In this document: in pieces, positions 10,559 to 59,139 of the stretch
How the letters are laid out: every line of letters begins with the position of its first letter
Position numbering within the stretch: the first letter of the stretch is position 1
NCBI RefSeq assembly: GCF_002844535.1
Contig: NZ_PJNH01000001.1
Span: 992,001-1,056,000, forward strand
From: Halalkalibacillus sediminis
Lineage (GTDB): Bacteria > Bacillota > Bacilli > Bacillales > Alkalibacillaceae
DNA: 64,000 nucleotides
Direction: 5' to 3'
Notes under the pieces: model-generated
Told to the model about the DNA's origin: nothing
The model's input: the letters and a program-made list of their open reading frames with translations, nothing else
Databases searched by the model: none
Program-made: the position numbers and the translations under genes

Positions 10559-11521
10559 CTAATCGTCTATTTGTGAAAAATAAACCTTTTCCAAATGCTC
10601 GATTTCATCCATCTTTTCTTGATGAATCCTAGATGGTGCTTCTTGTTGTTCATTACTTTCATTCACTTGCAGATAATTCTTCGCTAAATAGAGAACGGAT
10701 TCAGCGACCAATTCTGCATCCTCCATGTCTGGAGTGTATGGAAATGTGATGTACAAATAGCGATACAAAATCTGTTTCGTAAATTGATACATCGTAGCAT
10801 CTGATTGCTCCACAGAATCCAAATGTCTCAAACTAGCTTTAGCGAAATCACTTTCTAATACATCCGGCAAAGTAGCCGGTGAAAACCAATCACGTTGATT
10901 GAATTTTTCTACTTGGAACCGGTCCGTCACATCTTCATCCATGCACCATTGGAGAATTCCCGTTTTGATTACAGGATTCAAATTGCTGTCGCTCAAATAT
11001 GGCACTAACTGTTTCAAATAAGGCTGTATGGCATGTTTTCTATGGAAGGATAACAACTTCCACTGTTCTTGGAAATTCCCATTCTCGAGTGAAGTAAAAA
11101 AGTGATTCATGTGATCTTCAGCATCTTTAACTGTGGCAGTCGTCTGGAATTGCTTACTCATGTCATAGATTTGCTGGAAAGGTTCTTGGTATTCTTCAGG
11201 TAACAATGACATGTCTTGAACCTCATCCAACATATCAATTACTTCACTATATTGACTAGTCTGGAATAAAATCGTCAAATAAATATGTAAGTACTTATAA
11301 TAATTCTCTTCGTCCTCTTTCATTAATTTACGGCATAAACTAATAGCCTGATCATAGCGTGATAATTCAATCAGGCAAATCACTTTTGCTGTCAGGATAT
11401 CGTTTGATGCGGCATCGTATGTTTCTAACTTTTTGATATGTAATAATGCTTCTTCATAATTTTGGAGTTTTACAGCTTCGAGACTCTTATCCTCTAACTC
11501 CTTCCTCCATCCAGGGAACAT
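10559..11521 (-). CDS. TPR-repeat protein (YsoA-like)
   Basis: About 320 residues. Tetratricopeptide-like helices are visible in the N-terminal 110 residues (ALLHIKKLETYDAASNDI, AKVICLIELSRYDQAISLCRKL). The C-terminal part is helical without known motifs. The position upstream of tig matches ysoA in B. subtilis. I prefer the ATG at 11521 (MFPGWRKELEDKS), which has GGGGA 7 bases upstream. A scaffold or protein-binding role is likely from the TPR fold; the partner is unknown. Confidence 0.75.
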   Translation of the reverse strand: MFPGWRKELEDKSLEAVKLQNYEEALLHIKKLETYDAASNDILTAKVICLIELSRYDQAISLCRKLMKEDEENYYKYLHIYLTILFQTSQYSEVIDMLDEVQDMSLLPEEYQEPFQQIYDMSKQFQTTATVKDAEDHMNHFFTSLENGNFQEQWKLLSFHRKHAIQPYLKQLVPYLSDSNLNPVIKTGILQWCMDEDVTDRFQVEKFNQRDWFSPATLPDVLESDFAKASLRHLDSVEQSDATMYQFTKQILYRYLYITFPYTPDMEDAELVAESVLYLAKNYLQVNESNEQQEAPSRIHQEKMDEIEHLEKVYFSQIDD

Positions 11522-31282: not shown

Positions 31283-31306
31283 AAGAGTAGGGAATCCCCT
31301 ACTCTT
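31283..31306 (-). terminator. Hairpin over the end of the glycosyltransferase-like gene
   Basis: AAGAGTAGGG-gatt-CCCTACTCTT, with TATTAAT after it. The stop codon TAG of the gene at 31299 lies in the first arm. It may partly end transcription, which would leave head genes, major tail gene and glycosyltransferase gene in one strongly expressed segment. Confidence 0.6.
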
Positions 31307-32378
31307 CCACTTTTCTAATCATTGGGCGTCCAGCTTTGTTTTGGTCCGATAACAGTTCATCAATACGCTCTTGGCTGACTTTCTTGTTTACTGGCCGTGG
31401 CCATGGCTTATCCTTTTCATATTCTTTTTCGTCATCTAAATCACGCCAATTTTCATTTGACAAATACTTTGACTTTGCACTCTTTGCCATATTTTTAGTC
31501 TCCTTTATAGCTTTTACATATTCGTATGATGCTTTATTTTGGTCTACATGACTTAAATCATCTTCAAATGGTGTTCTACTTACATATTTACCTTTAAAAA
31601 ATAGTTTCTGATGATCATCCATCACCCCTGCATTATGAAAAATGTTCGTTTCATCATATTTTTCAACAGGATCCATCGGCCAACAGAATTCTAGCTCTTT
31701 CGGAGTCTCCACTTGTTTTCCGAAATGATAAACGTTCCACAGCTGCGCCCACATTTCTGCGGTCCATTTTTGGATGGGCACGTAATTGGAATCATTTTTT
31801 CGAACATATTCAGGTTCCACCGAAAGAAGGAATTGATAGAGTTTATTCGAATCTTCGTAAACCTTTTTCCAATATTGATATGTCGGGTGCTTAATGACCC
31901 ACTGGGCTCCCCCAATCGGATGTTGATCACGAATAAGGGATGGTTCAATGTTAATCACATCACACATACGGTCTAATAGATCTGTACCTTTACTATCAAT
32001 GTAATGCACACTAAGATAACTTTCACAATCGGATGCATACCAAGTATCTTTTTTCGGCTTAACCTTGGGCACATCTCGAAACAGTACATCGCTGTCTAAA
32101 TAAAAATAAGTTTTCTTTTCTCTCGTAGGGTCCTCTTCTAAATACTTCATCCAAAGGTATGGTTTCACGGATGGGATATAGCTCTTATCCATTCGCTCAT
32201 CTGCATAAACATGCGCTTCAACATCGTAATGCTCTTCTAAATAAACAGGCACCCGTTCATCCTGCTGCGTAAACAGCAGAATGATATCACGGATGCCTAA
32301 TTGATGTAGCCTGGTAATACAAACTTCAAGTTCCCACTCGAAACGTTTAATCGCTGGTTGGCATAGAATGTACTTCAT
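31299..32378 (-). CDS. Putative glycosyltransferase of GT-A type acting on virion proteins
   Basis: 359 residues. N-terminal strand-helix pattern (KYILCQPAI ... IRDIILLFT) fits a nucleotide-sugar fold. The DxD metal motif is YLDSDVLF (D95, D97). It is followed by GGAQWVIKHP (156-165), an aromatic acceptor-side patch KWTAEMWAQLW, and IFHNAG (246-251), whose His could be the third metal ligand as in GT8-like enzymes. The tail after residue 290 is charged. The gene starts 6 bases after the major tail stop without a clear ribosome-binding site, so it is coupled to it. Three virion proteins nearby end in poly-Thr. O-glycosylation of these tails is my inference; donor sugar unknown. Confidence 0.68.
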   Translation of the reverse strand: MKYILCQPAIKRFEWELEVCITRLHQLGIRDIILLFTQQDERVPVYLEEHYDVEAHVYADERMDKSYIPSVKPYLWMKYLEEDPTREKKTYFYLDSDVLFRDVPKVKPKKDTWYASDCESYLSVHYIDSKGTDLLDRMCDVINIEPSLIRDQHPIGGAQWVIKHPTYQYWKKVYEDSNKLYQFLLSVEPEYVRKNDSNYVPIQKWTAEMWAQLWNVYHFGKQVETPKELEFCWPMDPVEKYDETNIFHNAGVMDDHQKLFFKGKYVSRTPFEDDLSHVDQNKASYEYVKAIKETKNMAKSAKSKYLSNENWRDLDDEKEYEKDKPWPRPVNKKVSQERIDELLSDQNKAGRPMIRKVEE

Positions 32379-32384
32379 AAGCGA

Positions 32385-33059
32385 TTACGCGCTTGTGGTA
32401 GTCGTGGTTGTACTAGAAGTTGTGGTTGTTGTGTTCGGATAAGCTACACCGAATATTTTTTGGAATAGTTTATCACGATTGGCGCTTTCACCTGATTCAT
32501 CATAACCAAATACAACCGTCTTTTCTTTTTCAAATCCGTCAACTGGTCGTTCCATGAATTGTCCGGAAATCTCATCAGGGCTAAACTGAACACTTTCATT
32601 TTTCGTTTGAGCATTGATGTTCGGACGCATGAAAAGACCTTTTGTCAAACCAACCCACTCTTTAGAACCGTCCTCGTGTGTTTTCGCAAAGACACATGCT
32701 ACATATGGTGGATTGTCACCAGCTCCATAAGAGGATAAACCGTCCACGGTTTCAAGACCAAGCAACGTTTGTCTCACCTCTACTGGCAACTTGTGAAAGG
32801 CGCCACTGACACTCACATTGCCGTTGGCTACAGCGATCTCTGCCGTTTTGTCACTCCCGTAAGCTCTTACAGCTTCTTGAGGCATTTCTACTGTAATGGT
32901 TTGAACAAAGTCTACTAAATCCACATCACCTGTGATGATGCCTGCACCACTCTCGTCTAGAACCGCGTAATAAAGCTGATCCACACCCGTGGATGCTCTA
33001 TAATTTTTTTCTTCTGCAAAGTGCTGTAAATCTAGCTTTAGCAAATTACCTTGTTTCAT
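32385..33059 (-). CDS. Major tail (tube) protein with poly-Thr/Ser C-terminus
   Basis: 224 residues. N-terminus KLDLQHFAE and the phrase GVDQLYYAVLDESGAGI are typical of Firmicute siphovirus tail tube proteins (phi13/TP901 group). The last 16 residues are N-T5-S2-T6-S-A. This tail replaces the Ig-like domain many tail proteins carry at the same end. The same peptide ends the major capsid protein. I chose the ATG at 33059 after GAGGAAG. The gene lies between the tail-completion gene and the glycosyltransferase-like gene. Confidence 0.85.
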   Translation of the reverse strand: MKQGNLLKLDLQHFAEEKNYRASTGVDQLYYAVLDESGAGIITGDVDLVDFVQTITVEMPQEAVRAYGSDKTAEIAVANGNVSVSGAFHKLPVEVRQTLLGLETVDGLSSYGAGDNPPYVACVFAKTHEDGSKEWVGLTKGLFMRPNINAQTKNESVQFSPDEISGQFMERPVDGFEKEKTVVFGYDESGESANRDKLFQKIFGVAYPNTTTTTSSTTTTTTSA

Positions 33060-33074
33060 AATCTTCCTCCTCAT

Positions 33075-33446
33075 TTAAATTACATATTTCTTTCCGCGAT
33101 ACCGTCGAGCATCACGGAAAATTTTATAATCTCTATCGTACTCGTCTAATCCACCACCGCTATTCCCAAAATTCAATGTCCACATGATGGACTGGATGCG
33201 CTTGGAGACGACATCACGATCCGTTTTATTTTTGGACCAAACTTCTATTTGAAAAATAAAATCTTCCATCAACCATTGATTACTGGCGTAATCACTTGGC
33301 TTAGGAGGATCAAGAGGGTCAATGATGATGTGAGTATCTGTTAAACTACTAGTCTCTGGATACTCATAGAATTTGATTTGTCCTGCACACTTTTCATTGA
33401 TCAATTCATCAGCAATAAGTGCCTCATTGATTTCATCTAACATCAA
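33075..33446 (-). CDS. Tail terminator / DUF806-like phage protein
   Basis: 123 residues with the expected place between the HK97 gp10-like gene and the major tail gene. The middle (FIFQIEVWSKNKTDRDVVSKRI) is the alternating strand-helix of tail terminator proteins, which cap the tube where it joins the head. Start overlaps the upstream stop (ATGATG after GGGGGA). Assignment by position plus pattern. Confidence 0.65.
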   Translation of the reverse strand: MMLDEINEALIADELINEKCAGQIKFYEYPETSSLTDTHIIIDPLDPPKPSDYASNQWLMEDFIFQIEVWSKNKTDRDVVSKRIQSIMWTLNFGNSGGGLDEYDRDYKIFRDARRYRGKKYVI

Positions 33447-33835
33447 ATCCCCCTTTCCACCACTCGACGAATAGTATTGTGATAGGCTTTTTCTGAGTTT
33501 CGTAAAGCACGGGCAATCGCCCCTTTACCCGCTGGATTCGGGTTTTTCACTGTGCCGAATTCATTTAAGTGAATCACACGATACCGTTCATCCGGGCCTT
33601 TCCAATGAACCTTTATGGTCCTAGCCCCTTGCTCTGAATACGGCTTGGATAACGTAATCTCTCGAATGGAAGCTCCCGTATCACGAAACGATTGAAACTG
33701 TTGTTTTAACTCATGAACGAATACATCCGCTGCCTCTTCCAACGCTCGATCACTGATACGTTGCATTTCCTTTTCTCCAAAACGATTCTCCAAATCATTG
33801 AGAAGTCGATCCAACCCACTTACTTTTACACTCAT
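33443..33835 (-). CDS. HK97 gp10-like head-tail joining protein
   Basis: 130 residues. N-terminus VKVSGLDRLLNDLENRF and the later GPDERYRVIHLNEFGTVKNP are hallmark of the HK97 gp10 family, which acts at head-tail joining. Overlaps both neighbours by 4 bases, so it is translated in a chain. Confidence 0.85.
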   Translation of the reverse strand: MSVKVSGLDRLLNDLENRFGEKEMQRISDRALEEAADVFVHELKQQFQSFRDTGASIREITLSKPYSEQGARTIKVHWKGPDERYRVIHLNEFGTVKNPNPAGKGAIARALRNSEKAYHNTIRRVVERGI

Positions 33836-34203
33836 GATCTCAACTCCGCAATCACGTTAATAAAGTCCTTATGCTGCATATCTGGTTGAGCTTGTTTCAC
33901 ATTAAAAAGTTGCCCCTTATACTCGGGGGCATCAATCTCAACGTAATGCTTATTCGATGGAATAAAGTCAGCTAATGGATCTCGGATGATCACGGTCACG
34001 TCTGAAAGGGTACCATTGGATTTAGCCAATTCGACATCTCGTAACCATACCTCATCAATTTCGGCCCAGGCTTCATATATAGGGTCCTGCTGAATATTAC
34101 TCCCTGGCAACGGCCCTTCATTTGGTTCAGCTTCGTAAAACTTCACAGGTGTTCTTAGCTCACCTGAATGGACACGAGGCGGTTTATATTCAAACTTTCT
34201 CAT
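33832..34203 (-). CDS. Phage head closure protein
   Basis: 123 residues. HSGELRTPVKFYEAE near the start and VWLRDVELAKSNGTLSDVTVIIRD match the SPP1 gp16-like head closure family. I chose the ATG at 34203, not the GTG at 34212, because GGAGGT lies 7 bases upstream. That site is made by the Gly codons at the end of the preceding gene. Confidence 0.82.
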   Translation of the reverse strand: MRKFEYKPPRVHSGELRTPVKFYEAEPNEGPLPGSNIQQDPIYEAWAEIDEVWLRDVELAKSNGTLSDVTVIIRDPLADFIPSNKHYVEIDAPEYKGQLFNVKQAQPDMQHKDFINVIAELRS

Positions 34204-34204
34204 C

Positions 34205-34525
34205 CTATCCACCTCCAGATGTCGTGGTGGTTGTAGTTGTAGTCTCCGGAATCAAAGCAATGCCCAGGCTCGTCAAATCGCTCAAGAAGTTATCCTCAAA
34301 AAATTCAACAGCATCGTTATACGCATAGCGAGATCTCTCAAACACTAATTCGGTGGCTAGCTTATCGGTTTCTTTTTCACCGTCAATCGTAAAATCACCA
34401 CAACGGTTTTTAATGACAGCAACAGAAAAGGATAACAACCGTTTGAGATTGTTATCCTCGACACTGTGTGAAATGTGCATGCGACTTTTGAATTGGCTTA
34501 ATACACTATCCGTGATTTCTTCCAA
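34205..34525 (-). CDS. Head-tail connector protein (gp6-like) with poly-Thr tail
   Basis: 106 residues, small helical adaptor of the HK97 gp6 / SPP1 gp15 type, built as a ring under the portal (QFKSRMHISHSVEDNNLKRLL). It ends in P-E-T8-S-G3. It is the third virion protein in this operon with a poly-Thr end. The TAG lies two bases before the ATG of the next gene. Confidence 0.8.
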   Translation of the reverse strand: MEEITDSVLSQFKSRMHISHSVEDNNLKRLLSFSVAVIKNRCGDFTIDGEKETDKLATELVFERSRYAYNDAVEFFEDNFLSDLTSLGIALIPETTTTTTTTSGGG

Positions 34526-34538
34526 TCACATCACCTCA

Positions 34539-35711
34539 TTACGCGCTTGTAGTGGTTGTCGTAGTGCTAGAAGTCGTTGTTGTCGTAGTAGCACCATGAA
34601 TGTTCAAATCATACACTTGAGCTGAGTATTTATCTTTTGGTTTACCAGTAGCAAATTGCTTTTGGATATACAACGTTGCATCATCCAACGCCATCGTCTG
34701 ATCGAACTTTTTAATAGGTTCTGAGCCACCCGTAGCTGCAATGTACTCACCCTCGACGAAAAAGAGAACTTTTCCTTCTGGAACGAAGATAGATTCTTCA
34801 TGATCAGGGTTAAATGGTAGATTCGTCACATAAGCGCCATTTGCATTTTGAACAGTCGCATTGGCTTGGATATCAATCGTGTTAAACGGATTAGTAACCA
34901 TTACAACTTTACCCGCAACTTTTTTAGGTTCGTCAGCGTCAGACCCATCGCCATTCACTTTCTTAGCAAGAAGTTTGACCACATCACGCATCTCATTAAT
35001 CAATGTGCGACCTGGTTCAAAAGTTAATGTTCCTGCAGATTGCTTCTGTGCTACTGCTCCATCTTGTTGTTTAACATACAACAAACCAATAGGCATGTTG
35101 TTTCCATTACCTGTTACAAAACCTTTTTCCAGTCCAACAGCCATTGCTTCTTTGATCATTGTACGAACATAACGTTCTACCCAAACCGGACCAAGTTTTA
35201 ACATGTCGTTTGCTAGTGGAATGAAGGCTGTAAGCTTTAACTGAGTAAGGGTTTCCTTGCGAAACGCTGCATTAAGTTGCCCCTTAATTTTGTCAAATAG
35301 CGGTCCCCATACGGCTGCACCTTCTGGATCAGAATAAATGAACTCAGTAACTGCACCATAGTTTTCTAGACCAAGCTTATCTAACAGGGGATGCTCTTTT
35401 CGAAGCTCCTCAAACACACGCTCCTGGGTTGTCTTAGGAAGTGTTTCAGTTTCTTTGAAATCTCCATCTTCAACCACAGCATTAAAAAATTGCATTTCCT
35501 CACTCGTAAGCACGTTTTGACCACGAGACTGGATAATCGCGTTATCAGCTGATTGAGTGTGTACTTGGTTCAAGATATCACCCTGAACATCATTAGCAAG
35601 TGCTTCAAGCATTTCATTTAACGCTTCTGATTGTTCCTTTTCCGTACCTTCCTGTGTTGCTTTTGCAAACGCCTGTTTCTTTTTTTCGAAATTATTAAAT
35701 TTAATCGGCAT
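34539..35711 (-). CDS. Major capsid protein, HK97 fold, with poly-Thr/Ser C-terminus
   Basis: 390 residues. N-terminal helical delta-like region (about 1-75, rich in Lys, Gln, Glu) is followed by the HK97 core: GAVTEFIYSDPEGAAVWGPL, then VERYVRTMIKEAMAVGLEKGF with FVTGNGNNMPIGLL. The last 16 residues are T6-S2-T6-S-A. HK97 capsid proteins have their C-terminus at the outer capsid face in several phages, so the tail may be exposed. The protease gene lies 27 bases upstream. Confidence 0.92.
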   Translation of the reverse strand: MPIKFNNFEKKKQAFAKATQEGTEKEQSEALNEMLEALANDVQGDILNQVHTQSADNAIIQSRGQNVLTSEEMQFFNAVVEDGDFKETETLPKTTQERVFEELRKEHPLLDKLGLENYGAVTEFIYSDPEGAAVWGPLFDKIKGQLNAAFRKETLTQLKLTAFIPLANDMLKLGPVWVERYVRTMIKEAMAVGLEKGFVTGNGNNMPIGLLYVKQQDGAVAQKQSAGTLTFEPGRTLINEMRDVVKLLAKKVNGDGSDADEPKKVAGKVVMVTNPFNTIDIQANATVQNANGAYVTNLPFNPDHEESIFVPEGKVLFFVEGEYIAATGGSEPIKKFDQTMALDDATLYIQKQFATGKPKDKYSAQVYDLNIHGATTTTTTSSTTTTTTSA

Positions 35712-57963: not shown

Positions 57964-59139
57964 ATGGGAAGTGTTGAAAAAAGAGGGAAAAATAAATTTA
58001 GACTGTCTATTGTAACCGGCTATAATGAACGCGGCAATCCAGTCAGGATCAGAAAAACGATAACGGCAAAAAACAAAACTGAAGCTAGAAAAATACTATC
58101 ACAGCTGGAGTCAGATTATCTGACTGATCAATTAATTGAAACCACAGATATGCGCTTAACAGACTTTTACCCCCTATGGCTTGAAAAACACGCACAAGAA
58201 GCTTATTCACCTGGTACGAGAGGTGACTATATCAATATCATTAATAAGCGTATCTTACCTAAATATGGCCACATCAAACTAAAAGACTTTAAAACCATTC
58301 ACATCGTAGACTTTGTAGACGATCTAAAGAAGCCAGGAAGGCGTTTAAATGACGAAGAAGGGTATTTATCCGCATCTACCATAAGAAACTGTTATAAGGC
58401 ATTTAACAGTCTTCTTAAACATGCGCATAAATGGGGATTAATAAAAGCAAATCCTGCAGAAGGGGTTGCCCTTCCCTCAGCTAAGCAGAAACATGACGTA
58501 GATTATTCTTCTGAGATTATATGGAAGATGATTGAACGCATCAGTCACGAAGACATTGAAAAGCAATTGATTTTCTGGACAGCCTTTATTACAGGTTGTA
58601 GACAAGGAGAATTAGCAGCAATCGAAGATCGGCATGTTGTTTTAAAGGATGGAAAGTACGCCATATATATCGAGCAATCTTTAACGGAGGAAAAAGGTAA
58701 AGGATTAGTTCTTAAAAGCATCAAAAATAATGTAGCTGGATACGTAGCCATTCCGGAGCCGTTAGCCGACATGTTGAACAAACAAATTCTTAAGAAACGT
58801 AGAGACAAACTCTTATTGCAAAATCAGTGGGCCTACCCAGGTAAAGTATTTATTTTCTCCAATGAAGTTGGCAAACCCTATCGACCCGATTCCATCAGTC
58901 AATGGTGGATTCGATTTAGAAAAAGAAACGATTTAGGAAATGTCCGCTTTCATGACTTACGGCATTTGTCAGTAACCTATCTCATTCATAAAGGTTTACC
59001 GATTAAAACCATTAGCGATCGTGCGAGACATACAAATATCGGAACCACGATGAATTTATATGGCCATAACATTGTAGAAATTGATCAAGTAGCTGCAGAC
59101 CATTTTGGAGAGTTTTTCACCACGAAAGAAGTAAAATAA
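57964..59139 (+). CDS. int: Tyrosine recombinase, phage integrase
   Basis: 391 residues. N-terminal arm-binding AP2-like domain (about 1-55), core-binding SAM-like domain (about 65-165), and catalytic domain with Arg in TGCRQGE, HDLRH and ARHTNIGTTMNLYGHN giving R, H-x-x-R, H and the nucleophile Tyr. It integrates at the tRNA-Arg 3' end located 120 bases downstream. Starts 16 bases after immA with GGAGGTG. Confidence 0.95.
   Translation: MGSVEKRGKNKFRLSIVTGYNERGNPVRIRKTITAKNKTEARKILSQLESDYLTDQLIETTDMRLTDFYPLWLEKHAQEAYSPGTRGDYINIINKRILPKYGHIKLKDFKTIHIVDFVDDLKKPGRRLNDEEGYLSASTIRNCYKAFNSLLKHAHKWGLIKANPAEGVALPSAKQKHDVDYSSEIIWKMIERISHEDIEKQLIFWTAFITGCRQGELAAIEDRHVVLKDGKYAIYIEQSLTEEKGKGLVLKSIKNNVAGYVAIPEPLADMLNKQILKKRRDKLLLQNQWAYPGKVFIFSNEVGKPYRPDSISQWWIRFRKRNDLGNVRFHDLRHLSVTYLIHKGLPIKTISDRARHTNIGTTMNLYGHNIVEIDQVAADHFGEFFTTKEVK

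Follow-up and report, generated by a model that had tools for sequence, protein, structure and literature searches.

Threonine-rich C-terminal tails of capsid, connector and tail-tube proteins accompany a predicted glycosyltransferase gene in a Halalkalibacillus prophage

In Listeria phages of the PSA type, programmed frameshifting reportedly gives the capsid and tail-tube proteins shared Ig/Fn3-like C-terminal extensions. Some GT8-type enzymes glycosylate proteins, and DXD and HxxG are the metal and donor motifs expected of enzymes of this type. Virions of the mycobacteriophages Che8, Corndog and Myrna are glycosylated by phage-encoded glycosyltransferases (Freeman et al. 2023, Cell Host Microbe 31:1216, as described in PMC12363180, PMC12619734, PMC11256854 and PMC11600133), and the targets reported in PMC12619734, PMC12363180 and PMC11256854 are the C-termini of the capsid and tail-tube proteins. 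No earlier description of poly-threonine phage tails was found in the literature searched, most of which lay outside subscription journals.

The window analysed here is a stretch of 64,000 nt of the Halalkalibacillus sediminis genome and contains a prophage of a halophilic, Bacillaceae-type host at about 18894-59139; these limits were converted from the matching IMG/VR record behind loci L006 and L118. The late genes of the prophage lie on the minus strand in the order portal, protease, major capsid protein (MCP), four connector or tail-completion genes, major tail-tube protein (TTP), the gene at 31299-32378, tail chaperone and tape measure. The genes and tails concerned are as follows.

57964-59139: integrase.
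34539-35711, minus strand: MCP, 390 aa, with a C-terminal tail (Phage_capsid PF05065, E 1.8e-13; phrog_10, major head protein).
34542-34589, minus strand: MCP tail TTTTTTSSTTTTTTSA, 16 codons, the last 15 common to the TTP tail (codon alignment).
34205-34525, minus strand: connector-like protein, 106 aa, the third carrier of a poly-Thr tail (phrog_749).
34208-34243, minus strand: connector tail TTTTTTTTSGGG.
32385-33074, minus strand: TTP, 229 aa, with a C-terminal tail (Phage_TTP_1 PF04630, E 3.1e-10; phrog_88, major tail protein).
32388-32432, minus strand: TTP tail TTTTTSSTTTTTTSA, 15 codons (codon alignment).

The peptides end in T6-S2-T6-SA in the MCP, T5-S2-T6-SA in the TTP and T8-SGGG in the connector-like protein. 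The 3' end of the TTP gene reads ACA ACA ACC ACA ACT TCT AGT ACA ACC ACG ACT ACC ACA AGC GCG TAA, and that of the MCP gene reads ACT, then ACG ACA ACA ACG ACT TCT AGC ACT ACG ACA ACC ACT ACA AGC GCG TAA. Nine of the 15 common codons differ, and every change is a synonymous one at the third position. Among the six unchanged codons are TCT for the first Ser and the closing ACA AGC GCG; at the second Ser the two genes differ but stay within the AGY box. A sequence-only reading of this DNA had reported the same tail peptide on MCP and TTP with nine of 15 codons differing synonymously, which proved exact on codon comparison. Its formula T5-S2-T6-S-A is right for the 15 shared codons, while the first block of the MCP is T6 and not T5; the connector tail and the neighbouring glycosyltransferase-fold gene were absent from it. 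Across the 2.86 Mb genome, the pattern T5-[ST]2-T4 was found only at the ends of MCP and TTP, and the match between the two tails is therefore not due to chance. No C-terminal tract like the three tails was found in any further frame of the window. The GGG codons of the connector cap SGGG (34205-34243) overlap a Shine-Dalgarno-like GGAGG serving the next gene, so that translation signals rather than the peptide may set this cap.

The gene directly after TTP encodes a protein of 359 aa with the following parts.

31299-32378, minus strand: predicted virion-tail O-glycosyltransferase (phrog_4417; GT-A/GT8-like fold; co-occurrence with tails).
31479-32378, minus strand: glycosyltransferase domain, residues 1-300 (AlphaFold2 pLDDT 93.5; glycogenin Z 16.0).
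32088-32096, minus strand: DXD motif D95-S-D97, with D95 and D97 invariant in an alignment of 45 homologues.
31626-31637, minus strand: HxxG motif H248-N-A-G251 (HNAG), invariant in the same 45 homologues.
31302-31478, minus strand: fused C-terminal domain, residues 301-359 (tblastn and hmmsearch matches in 41 enzyme-less loci; phrog_3673).

The product matched phrog_4417 at E 5.7e-116 over profile positions 1-292 of 293. This family is represented in at least 74 phage records and is annotated in PHROG as of unknown function; the named hosts with the closest enzymes are Paraliobacillus, Piscibacillus and Gracilibacillus. The protein had no match in Pfam at E 0.001 or in NCBIfam, and four of its homologues matched no GT family even at E 1. 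Sequence searches against solved structures gave nothing significant, and the profile of the GT8 family was likewise not matched in these family searches. An AlphaFold2 model built from the 45-sequence alignment had a mean pLDDT of 93.5, and its top Foldseek matches were GT-A glycosyltransferases. After realignment the best match was glycogenin (Z 16.0, rmsd 3.1, 219 residues; model residues 1-303), with LgtC, UGGT, GlyE and LARGE1 close behind, and identity with the GT8-type enzymes in the structure alignment was about 10%. On the strength of this model, we are confident that the predicted fold is of the GT-A type and closest to the GT8 enzymes glycogenin and LgtC. A common fold alone proves neither the activity nor the substrate of the predicted glycosyltransferase.

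In 41 relatives without the enzyme, TTP is followed by a separate small gene (about 60 aa) that residues 301-359 matched; in L121 the homologue of these 59 aa lies at 11203-11385. The simplest reading is that a glycosyltransferase gene entered between TTP and the small gene and became fused to the latter, and a possible alternative is an ancestral fusion that was split later. That the fused part directs the enzyme toward virion proteins is a guess. The PHROG label for the homologue of this domain is 'Arc-like repressor', which is doubtful because the gene sits in the tail operon.

The locus resembles the glycosylated mycobacteriophage virions in two respects: a phage-encoded glycosyltransferase, represented here by a predicted fold, and the C-termini of capsid and tail-tube proteins. 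However, Che8 gp108-110 are of the GT2/GT25-type families. Neither hmmsearch nor blastp matched the present enzyme to gp108-110, and homology to the Che8 enzymes was rejected. The Che8 MCP and TTP carry no poly-Thr tail, and the genes of the Che8 enzymes stand at the genome's far end, whereas the present enzyme lies inside the virion block. Since the Che8 enzymes are unrelated in sequence and the MCP and TTP of Che8 lack poly-Thr, the present case would act like virion glycosylation but outside the Che8 enzyme family. The GT8-type enzymes glycogenin, LgtC and GlyE share with the model the GT-A fold and the DXD and HxxG motifs; unlike them, the present enzyme bears a C-terminal phage domain and shows no significant sequence match. 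As in the PSA-type phages, the same C-terminal module is found on non-homologous MCP and TTP, but here it is a short, low-complexity, acceptor-like peptide read in the normal frame and paired with an enzyme. The best explanation by analogy is a counterpart of the glycosylated mycobacteriophage virions that uses an enzyme of another, unrelated family and one acceptor tag common to the virion proteins.

The pairing was followed in two sets of loci. In the enzyme-first set, each of the 112 loci encoding relatives of the enzyme had one or more genes ending in a Thr/Ser run, and in 107 loci such a run ended the gene that directly precedes the enzyme. The set contains redundancy, with about 45 loci distinct by a k-mer filter. 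The TTP-first set consisted of 71 distinct TTP loci with sufficient downstream sequence, picked regardless of the enzyme. Both TTP tail and enzyme were present in 17 and both were missing in 54, with no locus having only one of the two (Fisher 1e-16). Poly-Thr tails occurred in two of the 54 enzyme-less loci, on the connector only. On the best tree, nine state changes were counted, three of them forced by strongly supported branches, with tail and enzyme always in step; a sign test on the three independent strongly supported pairs gave p 0.25. Because the TTP tail adjoins the enzyme, linkage inflates their association. For the MCP tails, about 2 kb away, 54 of 55 genomes agreed with the enzyme state; in the one that did not, L200, the MCP frame is interrupted and its last piece ends in a tail. 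L121 forms a minimal pair with the present prophage: its MCP is 75% identical and ends in NIPGA, its TTP ends in AVLGA, and it has neither tails nor enzyme.

The coupling of the connector tail was looser, as several enzyme-positive genomes had no connector tail. In L212, from the same phage as L129, the connector ends in a T10 tail, the enzyme is missing, and MCP and TTP both end in TPTV; this tail is possibly a remnant of a system since lost. Both L200 and L228 have the enzyme frame in pieces and keep their poly-Thr tails, and both were scored as enzyme-positive. The enzyme frame is likewise in pieces in L003-L005 (genome G013). These broken frames are either draft sequence errors or recent decay.

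We consider it likely that the tails and the enzyme form a virion O-glycosylation system, its chemistry being predicted. The Thr/Ser tails would be the acceptor tags, and the GT8-like enzyme encoded at 31299-32378 would add sugars to the hydroxyl groups of the numerous Thr (and Ser) residues in the disordered ends of MCP, TTP and, in the present phage, the connector. The tails would face outwards and the particle would bear a dense O-glycan coat; in short, the phage probably coats its own particle with sugars. The benefit may lie in host-surface binding, in shielding or in hydration in a halophile. The co-occurring glycosyltransferase-fold gene next door would thus give the reason why the tail peptide is kept.

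The tails could instead act unmodified, as flexible hydrophilic brushes serving solubility, spacing, weak surface adhesion or adaptation to a halophile, with the enzyme acting on other targets such as host wall polymers. Low complexity and variable length of the tails would suit such a role, and phage glycosyltransferases that modify host surfaces are known (cited in PMC12619734). Brushes alone, however, leave unexplained the perfect agreement between tails and enzyme, which extends to the MCP tails 2 kb off and to phages of unrelated types, as well as the placement of the enzyme inside the virion gene block. We regard this alternative as improbable.

Another alternative is that recombination or gene conversion spread tail DNA among MCP, TTP and connector, and that this DNA, of little function itself, hitch-hiked with the enzyme gene. 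The codons bear on this in both directions. At aligned MCP/TTP tail positions in 24 genomes, 59 of 177 Thr codons were identical (0.333 vs 0.325 in shuffles), yet the peptide stays. Differences within the Ser/Thr runs of MCP/TTP pairs numbered 18, 16 and 144 at codon positions 1, 2 and 3 in 211 codons; these counts were used in place of dN/dS, which is meaningless on low-complexity tracts of varying length. Neighbouring Thr codons were not repeated in excess (0.274 vs 0.284 in shuffles). Some traces do point to copying: the stretch ACT ACG ACG AGC GCT TAA is identical in the MCP and TTP genes of L008, L007 likewise has identical codon stretches, and the present prophage keeps its Ser codon boxes (TCT-AGY) and the terminal four codons. 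The cap residues past the run also agreed between MCP and TTP of one genome in 14 of 24 cases, against 3.6 expected. Older or occasional copying between genes is therefore possible, and the scrambled codons exclude a recent copy only. Copying may account for the origin of the tails, but it does not explain their retention, and as the whole explanation it seems to us even less probable than unmodified brushes.

The position counts show that the peptide is conserved while the codons scramble in the MCP and TTP tails. Since the peptide persists although the DNA matches no better than at random, the point raised for this prophage generalises beyond it, and selection for the peptide in two non-homologous virion proteins is supported by both the chance-level identity and the position counts. 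The sequence-only reading had set such selection against tails of random length and composition in related phages. Length did vary, from 5 to 21 residues; composition was constantly Thr/Ser, and MCP and TTP tail lengths covaried (rho 0.63). Avoidance of repeated codons was also considered and rejected, as there was no surplus alternation (p 0.2). Expansion of an ACN microsatellite close to the stop codons, which would fit the differing tail lengths among relatives, is very unlikely to have made the poly-Thr tracts: codons are mixed with no surplus neighbour identity, tails stand on three separate genes of one prophage and are absent from 54 related enzyme-less TTPs, and a slippage or codon-repeat origin was rejected by the shuffle tests.

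The enzyme-tail pairing was also found in other phage types, namely Enterococcus phiFL1A, Lactococcus bIL285, Enterococcus VPE25 and the Herelleviridae phage Bacchae, in which the neighbour of the enzyme is a mucin-like Thr repeat of 120 aa. Prophage PLE3 of Lactobacillus casei BL23 likewise has the pair. With somewhat less assurance than for the prophage itself, we propose that phrog_4417 and its distant relatives are probably phage O-glycosyltransferases that have so far gone unrecognised as a family. Their poly-Thr acceptor tag would be portable, standing on non-homologous virion proteins in many unrelated phages of Gram-positive bacteria and taking the form of mucin-like Thr-repeat proteins adjoining the enzyme in uncultured viruses. 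If so, the unannotated phrog_4417 family would gain a function, and virion glycosylation would reach beyond actinobacteriophages to common phages of Gram-positive bacteria (Lactobacillus, Enterococcus, Lactococcus, Staphylococcus). Poly-Thr C-termini together with a phrog_4417 gene would then be a simple genome signature predicting sugar-coated phages, and the role of phage surface glycans would become testable in laboratory phages.

Mucin-like Thr-repeat proteins of 84-171 aa adjoin enzyme homologues in L161 (11634-11996), L243, L268, L286 and L316. Some of these neighbours come from uncultured viruses and accompany distant enzymes (E from about 1e-42 to 1e-50). Contigs of uncultured viruses widely encode proteins with poly-Thr C-termini. 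In a tail-first search of viral contigs (L240-L319), an open-frame tail was present in 58 of 80 loci and the enzyme in nine of these 58; many of the stretches are short or cut, and they come from distinct viral groups. Among 15 tail-first records, possibly fragments, GT2 domains were found in six and phrog_4417-like enzymes in two, making seven of 15 in all, and enzyme families besides phrog_4417 may therefore serve poly-Thr tags.

In relatives without enzyme or poly-Thr, the ends of MCP and TTP still matched, with a common suffix of 2.69 residues vs 1.01 in permutations; examples are TPTEPEGA/TPTEPEGA in L146 and GGGVEG/GGGVEG in L193. Part of the matching therefore has another cause. Part of the match at the TTP end reads as an in-frame Shine-Dalgarno sequence (GAA GGA GYN); in L146 and L164, by contrast, the MCP gene encodes PEGA with GGC codons, and a Shine-Dalgarno site of its own lies past the stop. 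These phages thus tend more widely to give MCP and TTP matching ends, the poly-Thr form being the one that accompanies the enzyme. Short peptides common to MCP and TTP and written with different codons were also seen without the enzyme (EPEGA, GGVEG, DPTV and TTEGA, in L146, L193, L222, L225 and others). In the distant relative L206, the MCP and TTP genes both end in CCC TAA, and the +1 frame opens Fn3-like PKQPENLEA and PKTPVNVDA, respectively, which suggests putative programmed frameshift tags on both proteins. A similar +1 reading was seen in the TTP of L178.
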